From Bryopsis sp. KO-2023 (Eukaryota > Chlorophyta > Ulvophyceae > Bryopsidales > Bryopsidaceae): DNA of 64,000 nucleotides. A program made the position numbers and the translations under genes. The stretch spans positions 1,860,001 through 1,924,000 of the forward strand of contig BSYQ01000005.1 of the NCBI GenBank assembly GCA_030272585.1, written 5' to 3'. The notes beneath the pieces are model-generated. The model ran no database searches and was not told the DNA's origin. It was given only the letters and a program-made list of their open reading frames with translations. Positions 2,672 to 15,600 of the stretch are shown piece after piece (the stretch's first letter is position 1; each line of letters starts with the position of its first letter).

Positions 2672-2812
2672 GCGATCACGTGTCGCATCCCTGTGCACAG
2701 CCGCAGGAGACAGCATCTCCAGTACAGGGATGTACCCCCATATCTGCAAATCCCATATCCGACAGTCCCATGTTCGAAAGTCCCGCGAACGCTAAAGTCC
2801 GACATACACGCA
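2672..2812 (+). repeat. Left terminal inverted repeat of the MULE
   Basis: The core (about 2745-2812) matches the reverse complement of 11687-11760 almost base for base over some 65 bp, including the stretches CCCATATCCGACAGTCCCAT and CGCGAACGCTAAAGTCCGAC. Weaker similarity continues outward to about 2672. Inside it the unit TCCGACAGTCCCAT recurs, as expected for transposase-binding subrepeats. Confidence 0.65.
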
Positions 2813-4780
2813 TCAATGTTCTGACTCTGCCTTCGTCCATTCCGCCTCAGCAACCCACCAGAATCGGAACAGCATTCCATGTCTGGCCATGCCCCAAACT
2901 TTTCTCTTTCGCTCGTCTGCGGTCCGCAACCGTTTCCGCTTCGCAAAAGGAGCGCGCGCCACCGTCGCCGACGCCACTGCGCGTCTCTACCTCTCCAACT
3001 CGCTGTCGCTGAGGTGGTCGTGTCGCGTCCATGTCGAATGCTGCCGAAACCCTCTGCGACCTAGGGTAAGCTCCATCTCTTTTTCGTTTTCGCTCTCTTC
3101 GCTCGTGCCCCGTGTAGAAATCACTTTCCCTGTCGCCGTTCCTTGCTCGTGTGTGTTTCTGTGTGCTGTGTGGTGTACAGGATTGCGTGCTCCTGTCAGG
3201 TTGTACGGCGTATTCCTGGGTTGACACTCCCTCTCCTCCATGCACTCTCCCTGTTGGGGAACAATGGTTTGTTTGTTCCTTTTCTTCCACTCGATTTGGT
3301 TGTCCCCTGCTCTTCTCTCTCTTGCTATTTGGTCTGCCTTTTCTTCTTTTGTTTGGTTTCCTTGACTGTCTTGGTGTCCTGTTTCCTCTCCTTGCTCATG
3401 TGTGCATCTGTTTGCTTGGTGGTGTGCAGGGAATGTGGAATGAGTCGCCTCCAGGAGCTAATCTGACCTTCAATGAATCCAGAGCTCGATTGATGTCATC
3501 CCATATATAGTGATGTGTATATCCACCAACAATTTTAAACGAGAAAGAAGCGCTGCATTTGAAAAGAATTCCTGGGCTGGGGGGGGATCGAAGAATGTGG
3601 TATAAAAGCGAATCCAAACCAGATGAGTGAAAGGATCCATCAGAGCCCGACAAGCTTCTTGGAAGCACACCCAGAAGCAATCCCAGAATAGAAAGCGCGC
3701 TCCTGGAGACCGCATCTCGCTGATACGGAAGAGAAGACCAGGAACCCCCAAATTAGGTACTGCTGGTTGAATATCCTCTTCGAAAAATTCATTTTCCCTT
3801 GTAGTAAAGCTCTCTTGCTGAGTCCAGTTCGTCGTACACAATCCCCAACCAAGAACAGCAGAAACCCTGCCATCAGTCCGTGTAGTTTTGTCCTTAGTGT
3901 CCCCCCGACAGTCCCTTCCAGGAAGGAGACCCAACTGGTGGTAGTGGAAACCCTTAGCCTGTGGGTGTTCAGTGGAGCCTGTAGAGACTCGCTGCTTGGA
4001 TGTGCCTGTTTGATTAATGTGTTCCCTTTTCTGCTCTCTCTCTTGTGAATTTGAATGTCTTCTCCAGTGCTGTTGTCCCGAATCCCTTGTATCCCTGTTT
4101 GCCGTTGCGTGTATGTCTGGTGTGGTACCCAGCGTTGAATTTGTATGTGTCCTTGTGTGTCCCCCAGATGTCGATGAAAAGGGTAATGATCTTGTTTCGT
4201 GCTTCAGGTGATGTACAGGTGGCCATGCCCCATCAGCAACGTGCCCGAAAGAGGTTGCCGCCCAAGAACTCCTGCGGAGCAGACCACCGCGAGGGGCCGT
4301 GCCCCATCAGCAGCATATCAGGTCGTCGCGCGAGAACGGATGCGCGTGACACACAGTAGTAAATCTTCTTTCATACAGGTTGGGTTCTTGTTTCCTCCCA
4401 TTCTTGTATACTTGTTCATCAAATTTTTGCAGACCATTTTGCAGTCTATTTTGTCAGGGGGGGACACTTGCTTGATTTCATGTGATGTTTTTATTGTTTT
4501 CTTTTGGGACTCATTTTTCCCTTCCCTTTCGTACTTATTTTTTCAACCAGCAAGGTTTGTTTAGCCCCCACACACACACAAACAGGAGTGCAATGGGGGC
4601 GAAGCATTTGGCCGATCGAAAATATGGCAAAAATACGGGACAGGGGGCAGTAAACCGAAACCATCGCAGCAAGGCACCTAACCGCGCTGTCCTCAAGTGA
4701 AAGTAGAAGTGATTGGAGCAGTGGGCGTTCATTTTTGAGGGGTGGAGGGGAAGTGACGTAGTGTGTGTTGTGGGGCAGGA

Positions 4781-5269
4781 ATGGGAGGCGCTCAGGCCCA
4801 ACAGCTTCAGGGTGCTAATTTGTTGTTGAGCATGCTGAGGAGAGCAACACGTCCTGCTCAGCAGGCCAATCCCTTGGTAGCGATGGCCGCTGCGCAACAG
4901 CAACAACAGCAGCAACAGCAACAGGAATTGCCAATTGCAATTACACCAATTGCAGCAGCAGTTGCAAGTAAGTGCATTCGGAACACTACCCCCAGAATTG
5001 TATCATGCTACCAAAAGAATAAAGCAACAAACAAAATAATGTGCCAACCCTGTCAACTGAATACGTTTTTTTTTCCTTTTGCCAAGGGGGGAATAAATAG
5101 TAATAAAATACTTCTCTCAATTTGTGTCTAGGCCCAGAGAAAAATGGTATACGACCATCCTGCAGTTGTTTTAACGCTGCAGGGAGTACCTGTCAATAGT
5201 TCACAGTTCACTGACTGGTTCAGTGTGCCACAGTTTGGTGGTGGTCGAAGTGAAATACAGTGGCGTTAG
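4781..5269 (+). other. Possible glutamine-rich spliced ORF inside the MULE
   Basis: An ATG at 4781 follows an acceptor-like GGGGCAG and opens a Gln/Ala-rich frame with a CAR-codon run (about 4890-4922), ending at a good donor (4967/GTAAGT). An acceptor TGTCTAG at 5130 precedes a 46-codon frame (5132-5269) ending in TAG. The two frames do not join in phase at these sites, so the model is incomplete or wrong. Further acceptor-like sites at about 3180, 3430 and 4208 hint at a plus-strand, multi-exon transcript across 3.0-5.3 kb. No family recognised. It might be a captured host gene or a non-coding transcript. Confidence 0.2.
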
Positions 5270-5330
5270 ATAACTAAAAACAAAATAATTTTTTTGGGGG
5301 GTTTTTTCCCCTTCTTAAAAAAACAACTGT
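5213..5330. repeat. Outlying copy of the 121-bp repeat
   Basis: A diverged copy of the unit found in tandem at 6105-6660. It carries the same CACAGTTTGGTGGTGG block (5229) and the same TTAGATAACTAAAAAC block, just downstream of the protease stop codon on the minus strand. Confidence 0.75.
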
Positions 5331-5364
5331 TGCAGCGCGTCCCAATCGTCACAACAACCCTTAA

Positions 5365-7573
5365 TCATTCGTTAACTCTTTTCCCCCAAGACTCCCTGAC
5401 CATATCTAAAGCGAGTTGTCCTCTCAACGCGCTAAGATTATCGGTAGTGCATGGTACGAGTGGTTTCCCGGAAGCGAGTCTGTCTCCAAACCAGCACACG
5501 AATACGCCACAGCTCCAAGCGTCGTCTTGGATACGAGCTTCGTCAAGTGACCTGAAAACCCATTCTTTCTCCTTGTTCAACAGAGGGCAAAAGTCCAACA
5601 TCGCGTCGATTACGTTGTCCATGAATTCTCTGTCTGTATGTCGTGCACTGTCGATGAAGAACCCAAGTGCCTCTTTGGGTTTCAGTGCGAACAGGATCCT
5701 ATAAAGAAATGTGAAAAAATCAATAGTATTACAAGTGGAAGGATACTATAAAAAATATAGTATTCTAATACACTAGAATATTAGAATATTAATATAGTAT
5801 TTTGTATATTGTATTAATAAAAATAAATAAATAATAATAATAATTAATAATTAATTAATAATAACAATAATTAATAAAAAAACATATCTTTTCAGCATTT
5901 TTACCAGTGCTTATTCTTTTGGTTCAGGGGAATGAGAAGAAGGGATTTGCTGGATATGGAGTGGTGATCCATCCAAGAAGAAGCTCGGTCGACACCATCG
6001 TCCATAACAAGCTTCGAGAGGGCGCAGCTCATTGCGGTAATGTCGGGCCCAGCTCTTGCAGCCCTATCCAGCTACGAAAAAAATCCACGAAAAACCCTTT
6101 TTCTAAAAGATAACTAAAAACAGAATAATTTTGGGGTTTTTTTTTCCCTTTTTTTCTTTAAAAAAAAAAAACTGGTTGGTTCAAAGTGACACAGTTTGGT
6201 GGTGGTCGAAGTGAAATACAGTGGCGTTAGATAACTAAAAACAGAATAATTTTGGGTTTTTTTTTCCCCTTTTTTCTTTTAAAAAAAAAAAACTGGTTGG
6301 TTCAAAGTGACACAGTTTGGTGGTGGTCGAAGTGAAATACAGTGGCGTTAGATAACTAAAATCAGAATAATTTTGGGGTTTTTTTTTCCCTTTTTTTCTT
6401 TTAAAAAAAAAAACTGGTTGGTTCAAAGTGACACAGTTTGGTGGTGGTCGAAGTGAAATACAGTGGCGTTAGATAACTAAAAACAGAATAATTTTGGGGT
6501 TTTTTTTTCCCTTTTTTTCTTTAAAAAAAAAAAACTGGTTGGTTCAAAGTGACACAGTTTGGTGGTGGTCGAAGTGAAATACAGTGGCGTTAGATAACTA
6601 AAAACAGAATAATTTTGGGGGGTTTTTTCCCCCTTTTTTCTTTAAAAAAAAAAAACTGGCTGGTTCAGTATCAAAGTGAATAATCTGAATATATATTTCC
6701 ATGAATGAATATTCGGGATCTGGAATCGTTGGCTGTTGAACTCCAACGAGTCATTCGGTGTGGGTTTCATTGCAGTGACATGGCCATCAGGGCTATCAAG
6801 ATATTCTGGAAACATGCAGTGTGGCCATTCCCTATGCTGCCTCCGAGGCAGGTCCAACTGTTGGTCAGGCAAGGAGACGCCGAGCAAAACCATGAGGTTC
6901 CATGACCCCTGGAAAAAAACTGAAGACGTGCACTGCTCGGAAAAAGTAAGGGTTGTTTGGGGGGCTATAGAGCACAGTACAACTCAGCCACAGAAAACGT
7001 ATTAAAAAAAATCCCTAGAGGCGAAAACACCGTTAATCTCCCCCCTAACATTGTCTTTACTGAAGGGGGAGTTTAGAAGGGAGGGATGAACGTGCTTGCT
7101 GCCAATGCCGAGGCTTTGTCTCGTTCAAATTAATTTGGATTAATTTGGCAGAATGCTGTTTAGCAGAAAATTGCAGCCCGGGGGGAAATACGGTTGAAAG
7201 GAAAATATAGACACCTGCATTTATGGGGGAGTGTTAGGCCATGTAGGTTTGGATACAACCTACATGGCCTAACACTCCCCCATAAATACAGGTGTCCACA
7301 TTTTCTTACACATAGTACATTTCTTACCCCATAGTCGATCACGGTATCGTTGAGCCATCCCCCCCCCCTCGTCGTTTTTAGACTTCTGACGGTCAACAAT
7401 TCTTTCGTGGGCAAAAAGCCATAAACTTCGGCGTCATCGGCTACGGTAAAGGCGCGTAAAATTTCAGTTCCCAAATTTTGGGGGGTGAAATGGTCGGGGG
7501 CTTCGATCCACTTCGTCGAAGGTGGAAGGAAATTTTCCAAATCAATCTCCGTAACCTGTATTTCTCGTGCCAA
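5365..7573 (-). CDS. Ulp1/C48-family SUMO-type cysteine protease of the MULE
   Basis: Predicted to be a cysteine protease of the Ulp1/SENP fold, cleaving SUMO-like modifiers or a related substrate. Exon 1 is 7573-7328 (or from an acceptor at 7555) and holds the entry motif WLNDTVIDYG. A likely exon 2 starts at 6908; its 3' end is unclear. Exon 3 (6071-5905) ends in the catalytic His (LLLIPLNQKNKHW). Exon 4 (5698-5365) continues W-ILFALK, then the catalytic Asp (FFIDSA), Gln (ARIQDD) and Cys (AWSCGVFVCWF), then stop. The junction of exons 3 and 4 is in phase (TG|G). The intron before exon 3 contains the 121-bp array and the one after exon 1 a long palindrome. The first ATG lies 47 bp after the transposase stop. 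The His-Asp-Gln-Cys set is complete, so the enzyme is probably active. Confidence 0.75.
6105..6660. repeat. 121-bp tandem repeat in a protease-gene intron
   Basis: The block CACAGTTTGGTGGTGG recurs at 6190, 6311, 6432 and 6553, a period of 121 bp, with a partial unit at each end. Each unit also has TTAGATAACTAAAA, a T-rich run and an A-run followed by ACTGGTTGG. Units are nearly identical, so the expansion is young. It lies between exons 2 and 3 of the Ulp1-type gene. Confidence 0.9.
7201..7305. repeat. 49-bp-arm palindrome
   Basis: Positions 7201-7249 are the reverse complement of 7257-7305 with about three mismatches, separated by a 7-nt spacer (TGGATAC). The inner 39 bp have a single mismatch. 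It sits just inside the first intron of the protease gene on the minus strand, about 25 bp past the 5' splice site. It would fold into a very stable hairpin in RNA, or may be a nested miniature element. Confidence 0.9.
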
Positions 7574-7620
7574 GGAACAAAAAAAATATTAAAAATAAAA
7601 ATAACTTTTGCATACAATAT

Positions 7621-10600
7621 TTAAATCATGTGGATACAAAAATTCTCGGTTGTTTCTTCGACCCTTGTACGGACCTTCGTTCCCAAACCCAAACCGGTTG
7701 TGTGGGCTTCTCCCGAACCCGAACCCGATGCTGGGGCTGCTCCCCAACCCGAATCTGTTGCCGAGGCTGCCAAAAAACCCGAACCCGATGCTGGGGCTGC
7801 TCCCCAACCCGAATCTGTTGCCGAGGCTGCCAAAAAACCCGAACCCGATGGTGGGGCTGCTCCCCAACCCGAATCTGCTGCCGAGGCTGCCAAAAAACCC
7901 GAACCCGATGGTGGGGCTGCTCCCCAACCCGAATCTGCTGCCGAGGCTGCCAAAAAACCCGAACCCGATGGTGGGGCTGCTCCCCAACCCGAATCTGTTG
8001 TCGAGGCTGCCAAAAAACCCAATCCCGATGTTGGGGCTGCTCCCGAACCCAAACCAGTTGCAGGGGCTGCCAAAAAACCCGAACCCGATGTTGGGGCTGC
8101 CAAAAAACCCGAACCCGATGCTGGGGCTGCTCCCCAACCCGAATCTGTTGCCGAGGCTGCCAAAAAACCCGAACCCGATGCTGGGGCTGCTCCCCAACCC
8201 GAATCTGTTGCCGAGGCTGCCAAAAAACCCGAACCCGATGGTGGGGCTGCTCCCCAACCCGAATCTATTGTCGAGGCTGCCAAAAAACCCAATCCCGATG
8301 CTGGGGCTGCTCCCGAACCCAAACCAGTTGCAGGGGCTGCCAAAAAACCCGAACCCGATGTTGGGGCTGCCAAAAATCCCAAACCTGCTGCTGGGGCTGC
8401 CCCCAAACCCAAACCCGATGTTGGGGCTGCCAAAAAACCCAAACCCGTTGTTGGGGCTGCCCCCAAACCCAAACCCGATGCTGGGGCTGTCAAAAAACTC
8501 GAACCCGCTGTTGGGGCTGCCAAAAAACCCAAACCTGATGCTGGGGCTGCCCCCGAACCCGAACCCGCTGGTGGGGCTGTTGATAAGGGAGGATCAGGAA
8601 CCGTAGCTGGTGCTGGTCGAGTTTTTCCCCCCCGAAACTGCTCGGAGCCACCCTTATCAAACCCGGGTACATTATAGGCGACACCTCTCAAGAACTTTTC
8701 AAGAGTGATGTCGCCTTTAAGGAATTGCTCGTGTAGTCGAATAAGACGTTCGTCTACACGAGCGTAGGATTTTTTTTTCCTTTTAGGAGCTGCCCCGGCC
8801 TCCAGTTGTGCTATCAAAGCACCGGCGTCACTTTCCTCCTTCTGAAGTTCATCGAGGAGCTCCCATATGTTAGGGTGTGTTTTCCCTAGTAACCCGTTTA
8901 ATTTTCGATGATACCCTTCTGCGAAATTTATCGTTCGGTGGTCGAAGCGATTATGAACATTCCAAATGCCTACCCCTCCCCGGTGATTCAGCCAATTAAC
9001 TCGGAAATACTCCAATAATTGGGTAATTGGGGTCACCGAACTGTTTGAGCGTTGTGAAGCTTCCTGGACAAGAATAGCAAATCCTTCGTTCACCCGGGGG
9101 GGGGGCAAGAATGCGAGAGCCATCAGTTTCTTAACAAACACCCGGAAGACTTCATCGCGATTGTATTGGGTCTTGAGACCTAAATCACAAACTCGCCGCC
9201 ATATACACTGCGTGAAGTGAAAGTAACAACCGTGTATCGGAACATTCCACACCCCCCGGGCCGCCTCAATAGCGGCGTGCTCAAAATCGAGGACCATCTC
9301 CGTGGGCTGGAGATAGCGGAGGGTTTCAAACAATTTTCTGTAACTCTCCTCATCCTTGTTTGTAAGGAGAGCAAACATGCCGGGCACGGCGTTTCTGCCG
9401 TGCACCGAATGTATAATGTATATCTGTTGGAAAAAACGAGGCGCCGCTCGAAATGTGCCATCGAGAAACCAAATTTCCTGATCCATGCGCGCCAAGCTTG
9501 AGGGAGTAGCGAATATAATTATCCTTTTCTCCCCTTCCATAATATCAGCATGCAGAAAATTTTCACCGGACAAAGACTTTGCCCATTTCCCTTTCCAAAA
9601 CAAAATTAAATAAATTTTACAGAAAAATTCTTTTGAAAAATACAAGCCTCGTATAAATTTCCAGCCCCCAAACCTGATTTCTAATGAAACAAAATTGAAT
9701 TCGCAGAAAAATTTTAATGATTTTTTTACTTTTATATGAGAATATATAACTTTTTCTCTTATTTTGTACAAGAGGTTTTTATTTACCCTCGTAAATAATT
9801 TTTGCTTTTTTTATTTCTAAAAAAAAAAATCCGTACTTACTCGAGTAAATAAAAAAAAATAACTAATGCCTCACCTTCAATTTTCAGAGCACCAAGGGAC
9901 GAGGGGATACCCGGAAGTACGGCACGACGGGCGCGATACATCCTCTTTGAGAGGGTGCGAAAATTAGGTAGGGCGTTGACAACACCTAATGCGGCAGATT
10001 CGATGCGTGCTTCCCTATATATTTTAGGGACTGAAAAAAAAATCGTTTTAATTGACCCTTGAAATTTTCGGAAAAGAAAAAAGGCAATATGGTCATCTTT
10101 GGGTTCGAATCCCAAATGCCTTAAAAAGAAATTTTCTGTGGATCTTAGCGTATTTGTTTCCAAAAAATAAAAAAGGAAAAAATATATATATATATTTTTT
10201 AGTTCCCTGAAATATGAGATATCCACAGAAAATTTCACATGATTTTTTACTGAATCTGAGCATCTTTTTTTTTCAGAGTGCAATAGTCACACAAAAAAAA
10301 AAAATACAAGAAATTCATTTTAAAAAAAGGCAATATGGCAATCTTTGGGTTCGAATCCCAAATGCCTTAAAAAGAAATTTTCTGTGGATCTTAGCGTATT
10401 TTTTTCCAAAAAATAAAAAAGGAAAAAAAATATATATATATTTTAGTTCCCTGAAATATGAGGTATCCACAGAAAATTTCACATAATTTTTTACTGAATC
10501 TGAGCATCTTTTTTTTTCAGAGTGCAATAGTCACACAAAAAAATAAATATAAGAAATTCATTTTAAAAAAAGGCAATATGGCAATCTTTGGGTTCGAATC

Positions 10601-11183
10601 CCAAATGCCTTAAAAAGAAATTTTCTGTGGATCTTAGCGTATTTTTTTCCAAAAAATAAAAAAGGAAAAAATATATATATATATTTTTTAGTTCCCTGAA
10701 ATATGAGGTATCCACAGAAAATTTCACATAATTTTTAACTGAATCTGAGCATCGTTTTTTTCAGAGTGCAATAGTCACACACAAAAATAAATATAAGAAA
10801 TTTATTTTAAAAAAAGGCAATATGGCAATCTTTGGGTTCGAATCCCAAATGCCTCGAAAAATACACTTTTTTTTTGATATTTTTAACAATCACATACCTG
10901 GAGTGGTCTCAACAGCCGCTCGCTTTTTTATAGCCCCTTCTAGTCGTAAGACCTGAACCCTGGAAACGTCACCCGGGTGGTGATGGTCTTTTTCGTTTGT
11001 TTGGACCACTAAAGGCGTTTTCGATTTGATGCTGCATCTAGCTTCGCACTCCGTTTCGACGCAAGTGAAATAATGGGGGAGTTCTGGTTTTTTTCCGTTC
11101 GTCCGACGGAACCAATATCCATTCTCAATGTCGAAGAGAAGTTCCCCTCCTTTTTTCCCTTTTCCTAACTCCCACCGACTCAT
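7621..11183 (-). CDS. FLYWCH-type MULE transposase
   Basis: Transposase with a DDE-type catalytic domain. Exon 1 (11183-10898, start ATG chosen as the last before the domain) encodes a FLYWCH-like zinc finger: aromatic core GYWFRR, Cys pair in CVETECEARC, and HHH before PGD. Exon 2 (10030-9875) carries the RRAVLPGIPSSL linker typical of these proteins. Exon 3 (9590-7621) has the MULE domain: first Asp in WFLDGTFRAAPRFFQ, second Asp in MVLDFEHAAIEAAR, a CYFHFTQ block and the presumed Glu in NFAEGYHRKLN. All junctions are in phase, giving about 803 residues. The last about 290 residues are a 20-residue repeat rich in Gly, Ala and Ser, encoded by a 60-bp array. The first intron contains the 244-bp array. 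A longer N-terminus is possible. Confidence 0.8.
7700..8575. repeat. 60-bp coding tandem array in the transposase C-terminus
   Basis: About 14 units of 60 bp (20 codons), each with GGGGCTGC and CAAAAAACCC blocks on the plus strand. On the minus strand they encode units of the type SGFLAASATDSGWGAAP. Units are exact multiples of three and lack stops in several frames on both strands, so long open frames on the plus strand here are shadows. Some units are shuffled or shortened, consistent with unequal exchange. Confidence 0.9.
10083..10855. repeat. About 244-bp tandem repeat in the transposase intron
   Basis: The block GGCAATATGGCAATC starts near 10083, 10329, 10572 and 10816, giving three full units of about 244 bp and a partial one. 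Every unit contains TTGGGTTCGAATCCCAA, a perfect 5-bp stem with a 7-nt TTCGAAT loop like a tRNA T-arm, enclosed by AGGCA and TGCCT that could pair as a short outer stem. The array is removed by splicing between 10897 and 10031. Confidence 0.85.
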
Positions 11184-11686
11184 CGCTTCAACGCAAGGAA
11201 CGAATCGAACCTTCCCACTCTTAAGAGTGCAGCCACAGTTGCGTCCAATATGTACATGATCGAAGTTTCCGACTGTAAGAATTCCACAGGATCGACGTTT
11301 CTGACTGGAACAACTCCACAGGCTCGAAGTTTCTGGAAGATGTACGTCCACTCGCATTGCCTGGGATTCGAACTGTCGCGCACTCACAACTGTTCGACGC
11401 CGTCACTGATCGCCCAGGAGACGACTGCCCCCCCCCCCCTCCCTCGACGACGCGCATCGATAATGCTTGGGAGGCGGGAGGTGGAGGTCCTGGTATACAG
11501 GTTTTGGCGAGGCGAGGGGATGTCTGCAGGGGTAGACCTTCGCGCACGACGCACGCTCGGACTGCTCGGGTCTGTTATGATGCTTCCATCTCACGCGTTG
11601 CTTCGGTCGTGCGCCGAAGACAGAAACTGCAGGGCACGGAAACTTGTGTCTGTCGGACTCTTGCGCACACGTCTGTGTGTGCTGGG

Positions 11687-11840
11687 GGGATATATGTCGG
11701 ACTTTAGCGTTCGCGGGAGATGCGGACATGGGACTGTCGGATATGGGATTTGCGAACATGGGACTGTCGGACACGGGGTATAATCAGTACAGGACTGTAT
11801 GGTGCAGTGTCATGCTGCCAGTCGGACACACGTGGTTCGC
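11687..11840 (-). repeat. Right terminal inverted repeat of the MULE
   Basis: Inverted partner of 2672-2812. It has one more internal subrepeat than the left end: the block GGACTGTCGG occurs at about 11731 and 11761. The outer part (to 11840) shares CACGTGGTTCGC with the reverse complement of the left end (GCGATCACGTG). Confidence 0.65.
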
Positions 11841-12621: not shown

Positions 12622-15600
12622 GGCAGCTTTGGGTTTCGCTCGACACCTCAACCCACCAGTTGCCACCTGTCCTGCCCGGTGTCTAGCCCGGACTGCTTCC
12701 CATTGCCGGGTGCCCCTGTGTCGCATTGGTATCGTCTGTTCGTCGGCTGGGTGCCACGGCAATACAAGGAGGCGGATTTGCAACCCATTTTCGATAAGGT
12801 GGGCGTCGATTGCATGTTTATTGCCGTCGGGGTGCCAGGTTGAACCTCCGTGTTTGCGGACGTCCCTCGGGTCGAATGCCAAGTTCTGAAATACGACACC
12901 TGACAAAGTACTGTTGGAGGAGTTGCTGGTGAAGAATATTGCCCTGCTTTTTCTTTCTATTTCGGTGGTGTTTTTGGATCCTGGATGAGGTGGCAGCTGC
13001 CTTTGGAGGATATCTGGTTGACAGTCAGATCAGTGTTTTCCTATGAAACATGATTTTCAGTCGTTTTGTTTGAGGAAAATTTTGAAAAGGGGGGTTGAAC
13101 CCCCAATGTCTATGGGTTCATGGTTAATCGTTGGAGCTTCTTGGGGAGGTTGGCATGGTAGTAGGGTATTAGTAACCCCCGTTGTTTTGAATGCGATGTT
13201 GCAGTGTGGGGAAGTGAAGGACATCATTATCTTGAAAGATAAGGTTTCGGGGCAGCCGAAGGGGTGCGCATTCGTCAGCTATGCTACAGAGGCAGAAGCC
13301 AAAAAAGCAATTGCTGAACTCGACAGAAAAATTCAACTGTCCGGGGCATCCAGCCCAATGGAGGTAATGCAGATTGAAAAACTTCCTGATGGAATTGAAC
13401 CTTGTGTGTCGATATCGGGTTGAAAGAAAGTGTTGGATGTTGATTTGATGGTGATATATTGATATTGATACTTTTTTCCCCTCTCCCCCAAACAGGTTCG
13501 TTTCGCTCGTAGCCACCAGTATATCCAGGCTGGCACTGGACCTCAGGACAATCGTCAGCTGTTCTTCTCGAGGGCTCCCACCAGTGCCTCTGAAGATGAC
13601 TTCAAAGCAGCTTTCAGCAAATATGGAAAGGTGGGTCCGTAACCTTAATGATTGCTGTGGATATGCTAAGCTGGCTTTTTCCTGCGATTCCGGAATGACA
13701 GACACATAAACGTATATATATATCTATGTGTATATATTTGGATGGGGTTATGTCACCTCGTTTTGTACTGCTTTTTTTGGGCCAGTATATGTCAAATATT
13801 ATGTTCAAAATCTGTTTCGGTGCAAATTTAGTTAGGTTTCTAAAAGAAAAGATGTGACTGTAAGCTTTTTTGGTGGTTTGAAATTATAGGTGATCGAAAT
13901 CAATGTTTTCACGGACCGTAAGTCTTGCATGAGCAAGGGCTGTGGCTTCGTTACCATGGCATCCAGGCATGAAGCTTTCGCTGCCATTGAGAACATGAAT
14001 GACCAGTATGTCCTCCAGGTGAGTTCCTTTCCTTATTCTTGTATCATTTGGAATTGGTTGTGGATCCAACTGTTGTTTTTTTTGGTTTGGTAAATGGGGA
14101 GATTGTTTTTGAGGATTAAAAAAAAAAGGTGAAATCAGCCGTCTAAACAGGAATCGTTCAATTCAGGGTTCTACCTCCACTTTGGCTGTGAAATGGGCGG
14201 ATCCTGATTTGCAATCAAAGAAGAAAAAAGCTGTCGAGGAGGCCAATGCTGACAAGAGGCTGGTAAGTGAATGGCTTCGGCAGCAACATGACATTTCATT
14301 TCATGTCTCCATTTTCCAGCAGTCGAGAATTTCGTTATGCCGGGATATATATGATTTGACTGGGTTTTTTTTTGCTTTGTTTTCTAGAACATACCTCCCA
14401 CCAAGGAAACTGTTTCTTCTCCGTTTCCATCTGCTGATCGCTGGCTGTCGAGGGACAGCATGGACAATGAAGTGATTGCAAAGATTCTGGATGCACAGCT
14501 CCAGAAGAAGAGGAGGGAGGAGCAATTGGCTGCAACCATGCGCGAAGCCCAACAATCTAGAAACAGTGGAGGTATGTCAGGAAATCAAAACATCATTCAT
14601 CCCGTCGAATCGACGTCATTTTTTATTCTTTCTGGGAGGTTTTATCGGGGGGTTTGAAAATTGCGAGGAGCATGCATGCTTTCTATGCATAGTTTTCCTT
14701 TCCGTGGAAAGCTATAAGGTGAGAGAGAAAGCGTCTGGACCAGTAACGTGGTTTGGGGGGGTATGGGGGGGGATTAATTTTTCAACGGGGTGTGGCGATT
14801 TTAGGCGGGATCTGTCGCATGCCAGGCACAAACGCGCTGTACAGCGTCCCTCCCGGAGCTACCCTGGTGGCTGCCCAACCCCACGCCGTGAGGAGGCTGG
14901 ACTACACTCATGACGTCCCCCCTCTGGGCTGCCAGTCTGATGCTATCAAGCTGTTCGTTGGGAATATCCCCAAGACTTACACCGCCGAGAACCTGAGGCC
15001 TTTGTTCGACCAGATCGGAACCGTCATCGAGCTGGTGGTGGTGAGGGACAAGTTGACCGACGAGTCGAAGGGAAGTGCTTTCGTGTGGTATCAGACTAGG
15101 TGTGAGGCGGAGCGTGCCATTGCAGAGCTTCACTTGAGGTGAGGAATGCCGCTTAAAAAACTATCTTTTTGTTTGTTTAGGGTTTTTTTGTTTGGGGGGG
15201 AACTAACTAACAATTAGTAGGTTGCAATCTTTTTTCTTTTTCTCCTACCTTCAATATTCAACACAATGAATGCTGATGGGCAGCAAAAATTTAACGTAAA
15301 ATTCCTGTATTGCTTGAGTCAGCCCTTTGATTCATTTCTACCACAGAACTGTGTTTTTGCCTGTTTCGTTGGCTCATTTCTGTGAAAGAAATCAATCAGG
15401 TTTTGGCGGGTGCGATTGTGTTTAATAATGATACCTATTTGGATTTTTTATTTGTCAAAAAGGCATATTCTCCACGATCCAACTGGAGAGCAAGACAGGC
15501 CATTGGTGGTGAGGAGGGCAAACCCTAAGGTCCCTCCGGTGCTGTTGCAAGCTGCGGCTGTGATGCCTCAGACCTCGCCGACCGCACCTGCTCCGGTTCA

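Follow-up and report, generated by a model that had tools for sequence, protein, structure and literature searches.

A recently mobile Mutator-like element of an alga with terminal inverted repeats and a putative transposase-Ulp1/SENP fusion

In a 64,000-nt stretch of Bryopsis sp. KO-2023 DNA (contig BSYQ01000005.1, positions 1,860,001 to 1,924,000; hereafter the window), we describe a Mutator-like element (MULE) with terminal inverted repeats (TIRs), which carries the genetic parts of a MULE-type transposase and of a Ulp1/SENP (C48) protease. The element is a recently mobile TIR-type MULE. The reading that we consider likely is that it is also autonomous and that its transposase gene additionally gives a form fused to the Ulp1/SENP domain; it draws on observed features, namely the element ends, target-site duplications (TSDs), copies, open frames, domain identity and catalytic residues. 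Most probably the transposase gene includes the protease. Transposons bearing Ulp1-like proteases (ULP) are already known in plants and animals; what is unusual here is the architecture, which is well preserved and is not of the Kaonashi type. Coordinates are positions in the window, C-numbers denote contigs of the same genome, and L-numbers denote loci examined.

Element ends, copies and recent mobility

The extent of the element, its inverted repeats and its flanking duplications are as follows.

2729..11785, minus strand: whole element, 9,057 bp, with ends set by the C10 and C7 copies, which are divergent outside
2721..2728, no strand: left TSD, AGTACAGG, a perfect match to 11786-11793
11786..11793, no strand: right TSD, AGTACAGG, a perfect match to 2721-2728
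2729..2806, plus strand: left TIR, starting GATGTACC, with three 15-bp CCCATATCC-type units
11693..11785, minus strand: right TIR, starting GATTATACC (minus strand), with four 15-bp units

The core arms of the inverted repeats (2737-2806 and 11693-11762, 70 nt each) are identical at 63/70 positions (90% complementary), compared with a best match of 36/70 for the left arm when the element was block-shuffled 200 times. A preliminary description of this DNA, made from the letters alone, had reported inverted repeats at both ends; the repeats stand, but the boundaries given there (2672-11840) lie ~55 bp too far out on each side. The 15-bp units within the TIRs would be good candidates for transposase binding sites.

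Copies were sought with 141 bp of the left end of the element as the query against the same genome (91 Mb, 28 contigs), which gave 38 matches. Besides the window copy there are two further full-length copies (on C10 and C7), and the three have distinct flanks and a perfect 8-bp TSD each of their own. Three positions (one within a coding exon) separate the C10 copy from the window copy; the C7 copy is 9,907 bp long and has 99.0-99.5% identity within the aligned parts. The TSD test comprised 18 loci, with L035 standing outside it, and a perfect 8-bp TSD is present at 14 of these (the 3 full copies and 11 miniatures with both ends located). The exceptions are two copies of a related second family (C1a, one mismatch; C1b, three mismatches) and the loci L033 and L034, where only one end was located. 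The near-identical copies and their perfect duplications bear out the recent activity proposed in the preliminary description, and also answer its call for a search for target duplications of 8-10 bp. It had further held that its reading would fall if the genome had no second copy or empty site, or if the protease lay outside the repeats in other copies; the further copies exist, and in all three full copies the protease lies within the inverted repeats, while an empty site was not found (see below).

The related second family (family B) includes C1a, C1b and, near 2,326 kb of C10, a further copy (C10b). Exons 2-5 of the gene described below are absent from the family-B copies compared, and the right TIR GATTATACACC is found in C1a and C1b. 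The miniature relatives, which measure 339-410 bp where both ends are located, have TIRs of the family-B type, nearer to those of family B (GATTATACACC) than to those of the full element. Perfect 8-bp TSDs flank 11 of the 12 miniatures tested, the twelfth having one end only, and these miniatures show that elements of this group move without a gene of their own. They are ready-made substrates for transposition tests.

Two members of the group have unusual contents. Family-B copy C1a (L019/L020, C1:6851842-6864345) contains a nested element of ~8.5 kb of the long terminal repeat (LTR) type, which is probably a recent insertion because its 269-bp ends are identical and it retains a 1303-codon open frame. 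A miniature of ~400 bp at L024 185-594 (C7:1622484-1622893) holds TTTAGGG telomere-type repeats and GC-rich repeats between its inverted repeats.

The transposase-protease gene

The predicted gene lies on the minus strand and has six exons separated by five GT-AG introns, with consistent phases and 1,028 codons. Its parts, in the order of transcription, are listed here together with the repeat arrays.

10898..11183, minus strand: exon 1, FLYWCH-like zinc finger; an in-frame upstream ATG at 11358 is also possible
10077..10854, minus strand: tandem repeat in intron 1, 244-bp unit x 3.2
9875..10030, minus strand: exon 2, N-terminal part of the transposase, from splice phases and alignment to other MULE families
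7675..9590, minus strand: exon 3, MULE DDE core (D191, D249, E372) and repeat linker; weak donor at 7674
7716..8579, minus strand: minisatellite with a 30-bp unit, 29 units with the edge included, giving a ten-residue Ala/Gly/Pro/Ser-rich repeat
7328..7555, minus strand: exon 4, start of the Ulp1 domain (WLND motif), without methionine
6108..6667, minus strand: tandem repeat in intron 4, 121-bp unit x 4.6
5905..6071, minus strand: exon 5, Ulp1 domain with the catalytic His (H917) within NKHW
5365..5698, minus strand: exon 6, Ulp1 domain with Asp (D934), Gln (Q975), Cys (C981) and the stop codon

The frame is intact in 3/3 full copies, with 0 internal stops and identical splice contexts at all five introns, and the predicted protein differs from that of the window copy at 5 residues in the C7 copy and at 1 in the C10 copy. 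The complete catalytic motifs noted in the preliminary description are present, and its placement of transposase and protease on one strand (minus for both) stands.

The transposase region matches the MULE model PF10551 (E 5.3e-7, 30.4 bits, cut-off 27.6), the sole transposase model matched in Pfam. The columns for D, D, E and CxxH (GCYFH motif) are common to this transposase and four other MULE families of the genome, while a fifth group (L079) gave no alignment to it at E 0.1. Target duplications of MULEs are given as 8-11 bp in the survey PMC6446971, in the parts available, and the element combines a duplication in this range (8 bp) with a MULE-type DDE transposase and terminal inverted repeats. 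Cut-and-paste activity by the element's own protein is very probable on our estimate.

The protease domain is spread over exons 4 to 6. In Pfam searches exon 6 alone scores 21.2 bits with Ulp1/C48 and exon 4 alone gives no match, while the spliced protein matches PF02902 with E 5.2e-12 and with the H, D, Q and C aligned (His 917, Asp 934, Gln 975 and Cys 981 of the predicted protein). Sequence matches in PDB include yeast Ulp1 (1euv, E 6e-8) and SENP2 (E 1.2e-6); all of those below E 0.02 are Ulp1/SENP deSUMOylases (14/16 rows), and the last two rows are ChlaDub2 (E 0.28 and 0.38). Both the similarity and the His-Asp-Gln-Cys set place the domain among the Ulp1/SENP (C48) proteases, in agreement with the Ulp1-fold protease with a full catalytic set named in the preliminary description. 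On our estimate, deSUMOylating activity is rather likely.

In exon 4 the frame opens 32 bp past the stop of the transposase frame and contains no methionine ahead of WLND, making an independent start of the protease there unlikely. In-frame joins of exon 3 to exon 4 are possible. With no methionine ahead of the catalytic motifs in the protease exon and an in-frame splice to the transposase available, fusion is the simplest model, and on this sequence evidence we consider a single fused protein probable. The alternative is that two separate proteins are made: a transposase, linker included or not, that terminates at the 7621-7623 stop, and a protease translated from a transcript of its own whose 5' exon has escaped detection. 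Such an arrangement has precedents: ULP genes of plant MULEs are described downstream of the transposase open reading frame (ORF) in either orientation (in the available parts of PMC2528002), and the elements that bear KIU have three genes, KIU being one of them (likewise PMC13317346). The transposase frame also has a stop of its own ~20 codons past the last repeat unit, and the weak exon 3-4 donor fits separate proteins as well. Nevertheless, separate proteins seem unlikely to us, given the exon-4 frame without methionine, the mere 32 bp between the frames and the acceptor at 7556, which implies an upstream exon.

Proposed role of the protease and competing explanations

In the mechanism we propose, the FLYWCH-like finger probably binds the 15-bp repeats inside the inverted repeats, and the DDE core would cut and insert DNA with an 8-bp stagger. 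Splicing most likely also yields a form with a C-terminal Ulp1/SENP domain, joined via the repetitive Ala/Gly linker, so that the finger would recruit the protease to the element's own DNA. There the protease may act on the transposase, or on local host chromatin or repair proteins, stripping them of SUMO or of a similar ubiquitin-like tag, and SUMO removal would raise transposition or blunt silencing. A putative anti-silencing or transposase-stabilising role of the protease is held tentatively, at slightly less than an even chance. The complete scheme is more doubtful: one spliced protein with a built-in, DNA-targeted SUMO protease, in a green alga far from the angiosperm ULP-MULEs, that would bind the ends through its finger, cut DNA and deSUMOylate itself or silencing/repair factors, with intron retention giving a protease-free form. 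The near-identical full copies with their apparently fused protease offer a clean system for asking if SUMO removal aids transposition or escape from silencing.

Several observations weigh against the autonomous, fused-protease reading. The FLYWCH assignment is marginal: PF04500 scores 24.4 bits for the exon-1 frame alone (cut-off 23.6) and 16.0 bits, below the cut-off, in the spliced protein, so that of the transposase with FLYWCH-like finger and DDE motifs in the preliminary description the DDE/MULE part is upheld and the finger stays marginal; the exon-1 finger can be aligned with that of a related MULE at C13, where FLYWCH is clear. The general donor consensus is MAG/GTRAGT (slash, exon boundary). 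The exon 3-4 donor, AAG/GTCCGT, is weak, departing from the usual GTRAG; it matches 7/9 positions of this consensus and lacks the usual +3 and +4 bases. It is the best-placed candidate for the exon 3-4 junction, and several other donors in the scanned interval (7720-7618 only) also keep the frame. Distinct variants in the linker number 9 synonymous to 17 non-synonymous (0.346 versus 0.300 expected), and this repeat linker, without clear coding constraint, could be intronic like the 244-bp and 121-bp arrays. Be the array coding or intronic, the protease would still be spliced to the transposase exons. At the exon 6 comparison with C1b/C10b, the ratio of non-synonymous to synonymous substitution rates (dN/dS) is 0.81, from eight changes (2 synonymous, 6 non-synonymous) over 64 codons in a gapped alignment, the two copies giving the same counts and not being independent; taken together, the exon 6 comparisons give no demonstration of purifying selection on the protease either way. 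A paralogous empty site was not recovered, the joined flanks giving no junction-spanning match among the 40 candidates scored out of 126; a repeated sequence that looks like an LTR end lies in the left flank. Finally, a host SUMO was not clearly identified: of the 29 matches to Rad60-SLD many lie in tandem arrays resembling polyubiquitin, and the two candidates read (L095, L096) are not clear SUMO.

Across all exons the C7 and window copies differ by 2 synonymous and 5 non-synonymous changes, and the three full copies are uninformative on selection because they are too similar. Against the family-B copies, exon 1 has a dN/dS of 0.45-0.46 (0.35 for C1a), while exon 6 gives 0.11 against C1a on only 29 codons and the exon 6 region 0.31 against a relic on C2 on 50 codons, with a stop.

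These data bear on a further explanation, in which the protease would be a passenger, derived from a host ULP sequence by capture and playing no part in transposition. Capture does happen here, judging by the apparent host-gene fragment and the LINE-like fragment within the element (listed below), and purifying selection was not demonstrated in the exon 6 comparisons. Set against this are the complete catalytic set over three exons with phases kept, and the persistence of protease parts in family B and the C2 relic. Moreover, no close host source of the protease was found in the same genome outside the element group, which suggests, without proving it, that the protease has been kept open through long divergence; the best matches there are C2:8513600 and C2:8527740 (38% over 42 aa, one stop inside), followed by C12:42812 (48% over 33 aa) and L061/L062 (26%). 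A mere passenger is accordingly improbable in our estimate. A third possibility is a self-processing protease that frees the transposase from a precursor. Adenovirus-like proteases process polyproteins, and here the two domains share one predicted protein with a long repetitive linker, just before which a Gly-Gly pair occurs twice (KGGSEQFRGGKT). By analogy this can be entertained, yet with every PDB match below E 0.02 being a deSUMOylase of the Ulp1/SENP type it appears very unlikely.

No Ulp1 match was obtained by tblastn at E 0.01 in the ~3.3-kb stretches around each of the other MULE families, and of 16 C48 places in the genome none of the 11 outside the element and family B lies within 20 kb of a MULE place, in a profile search of limited sensitivity (exon 6 of the element itself reaches just 18.8 bits). 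Two of the loci examined, L061 (C1:9091544) and L062 (C10:5061824), are 97% identical over 1.44 kb, have a common Ulp1 (C48) domain and different surroundings, and may represent a second mobile element with a protease of the SUMO type. At C17:147399-198208, ubiquitin-like open frames of 305-355 codons that match Rad60-SLD lie in a cluster. A viral source for the transposase core or for Ulp1 exon 6 was also considered; scans of viral contigs gave 17 and 5 pattern matches, respectively, none of them confirmed, with single-protein queries that reach close relatives only, so that within this reach a viral source is unsupported.

Known relatives, cargo and host

The statements on published elements in this section follow the available parts of the papers cited. 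The preliminary description had taken the element for an algal counterpart of Kaonashi (KI-MULE) of Arabidopsis. Kaonashi likewise combines a Mutator-like transposase and Ulp1/C48 in one element (as KI-MULE/KIU), but it is described as a non-TIR MULE with its ULP reversed relative to mudrA (PMC2528002). The present element differs in having TIRs, a protease on the same strand and apparently fused in frame, and a FLYWCH-like finger, and the Kaonashi assignment is given up. KIU genes are described as VANC genes that bear Ulp1, with a link to hypomethylation of related elements; what Ulp1 does in plant MULEs is still called unknown in a recent review (PMC13317346).

ULP domains occur in several unrelated DNA transposons, including MULE and CACTA (PMC2528002) and Ginger1 (PMC2836005). 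In melon and grapevine, TIR-MULEs and Jittery-like elements are reported to carry ULP, which in grapevine MULEs can point either way; five CACTA families of grapevine carry it too (PMC2528002). The element resembles these ULP-bearing TIR-MULEs in its TIRs and in a ULP downstream of the transposase; theirs belong to angiosperm MuDR-like or Jittery-like lineages, and splice fusion and FLYWCH go unmentioned for them in the parts of the source at hand. Ginger1 transposases have a Ulp1 or OTU domain at the C-terminus. Ulp1 is also said to be encoded by Mutators of hydra, lancelet, Arabidopsis, maize, rice and melon, and a role for Ulp1 in repair during transposition has been proposed (PMC2836005). 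The element is like Ginger1 in its predicted C-terminal Ulp1 within the transposase protein and, by description, like the hydra and lancelet Mutators in encoding Ulp1. Unlike Ginger1, whose transposase is of the Gypsy-integrase type, only MULE was matched here.

Zisupton/KDZ elements also carry Ulp1. The literature search found no paper on Zisupton with Ulp1 and none joining MULE, FLYWCH and Ulp1, the subscription literature being mostly outside its scope. The MULE survey PMC6446971 lists FLYWCH groups and minisatellites after the transposase, and the terms ULP, protease, peptidase and SUMO do not appear in its main text. FLYWCH in some Phantom elements and a minisatellite after the transposase ORF in aphid Phantom recall the present element with its marginal FLYWCH-like finger and its minisatellite, as does the C-terminal minisatellite of Rehavkus; no protease is listed for either, and their TSDs are 8-10 bp where given (Phantom) and 9 bp (Rehavkus) (PMC6446971).

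MULEs are known to pick up pieces of genes (PMC6446971; PMC2528002), and two further fragments lie within the element.

4546..5140, plus strand: apparent capture from a Gln-rich host gene, with 88% identity to C7:5497320-5497957
3631..3991, minus strand: fragment like a long interspersed nuclear element (LINE), with short matches at 3631-3711 and 3945-3991 to an ORF at C5:2764 kb

Sequence covering or overlapping the 4546-5140 fragment is also present in family-B copies; the capture therefore predates the family split. Pfam gave no domain in the five ORFs read at the Gln-rich gene fragment. The C5 locus has a 533-codon open frame that reads like a LINE endonuclease, with a like match at C16 and a match at C15 also seen.

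The 107 stretches of the genome that match the light-harvesting-complex (LHC) model show that the host is photosynthetic, and this part of the preliminary reading, a MULE in a photosynthetic host, is supported. One LHC piece scores 239 bits with the siphonaxanthin LHCII chain Bry-Lhcb1 and 240 with Lhcb1 of 9k7v, compared with at most 195 bits with chlorophyll a-b binding protein chains, the longer multi-domain chain 9vfj ranking first; with Bry taken to mean Bryopsis, these scores suggest a siphonous green alga.

Elsewhere in the genome, contig C2 holds 16/31 of the transposase matches between 1.43 and 5.96 Mb, most of them short or stop-containing, which suggests a graveyard of old MULEs. 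In the window itself, a repeated, LTR-end-like sequence at 2529-2672 stops ~56 bp to the left of the element and is nearly identical at 38 other places among the matches listed, and RRM matches occur on the plus strand in two open frames at 13022-15139, at least 1.2 kb past the right end of the element.

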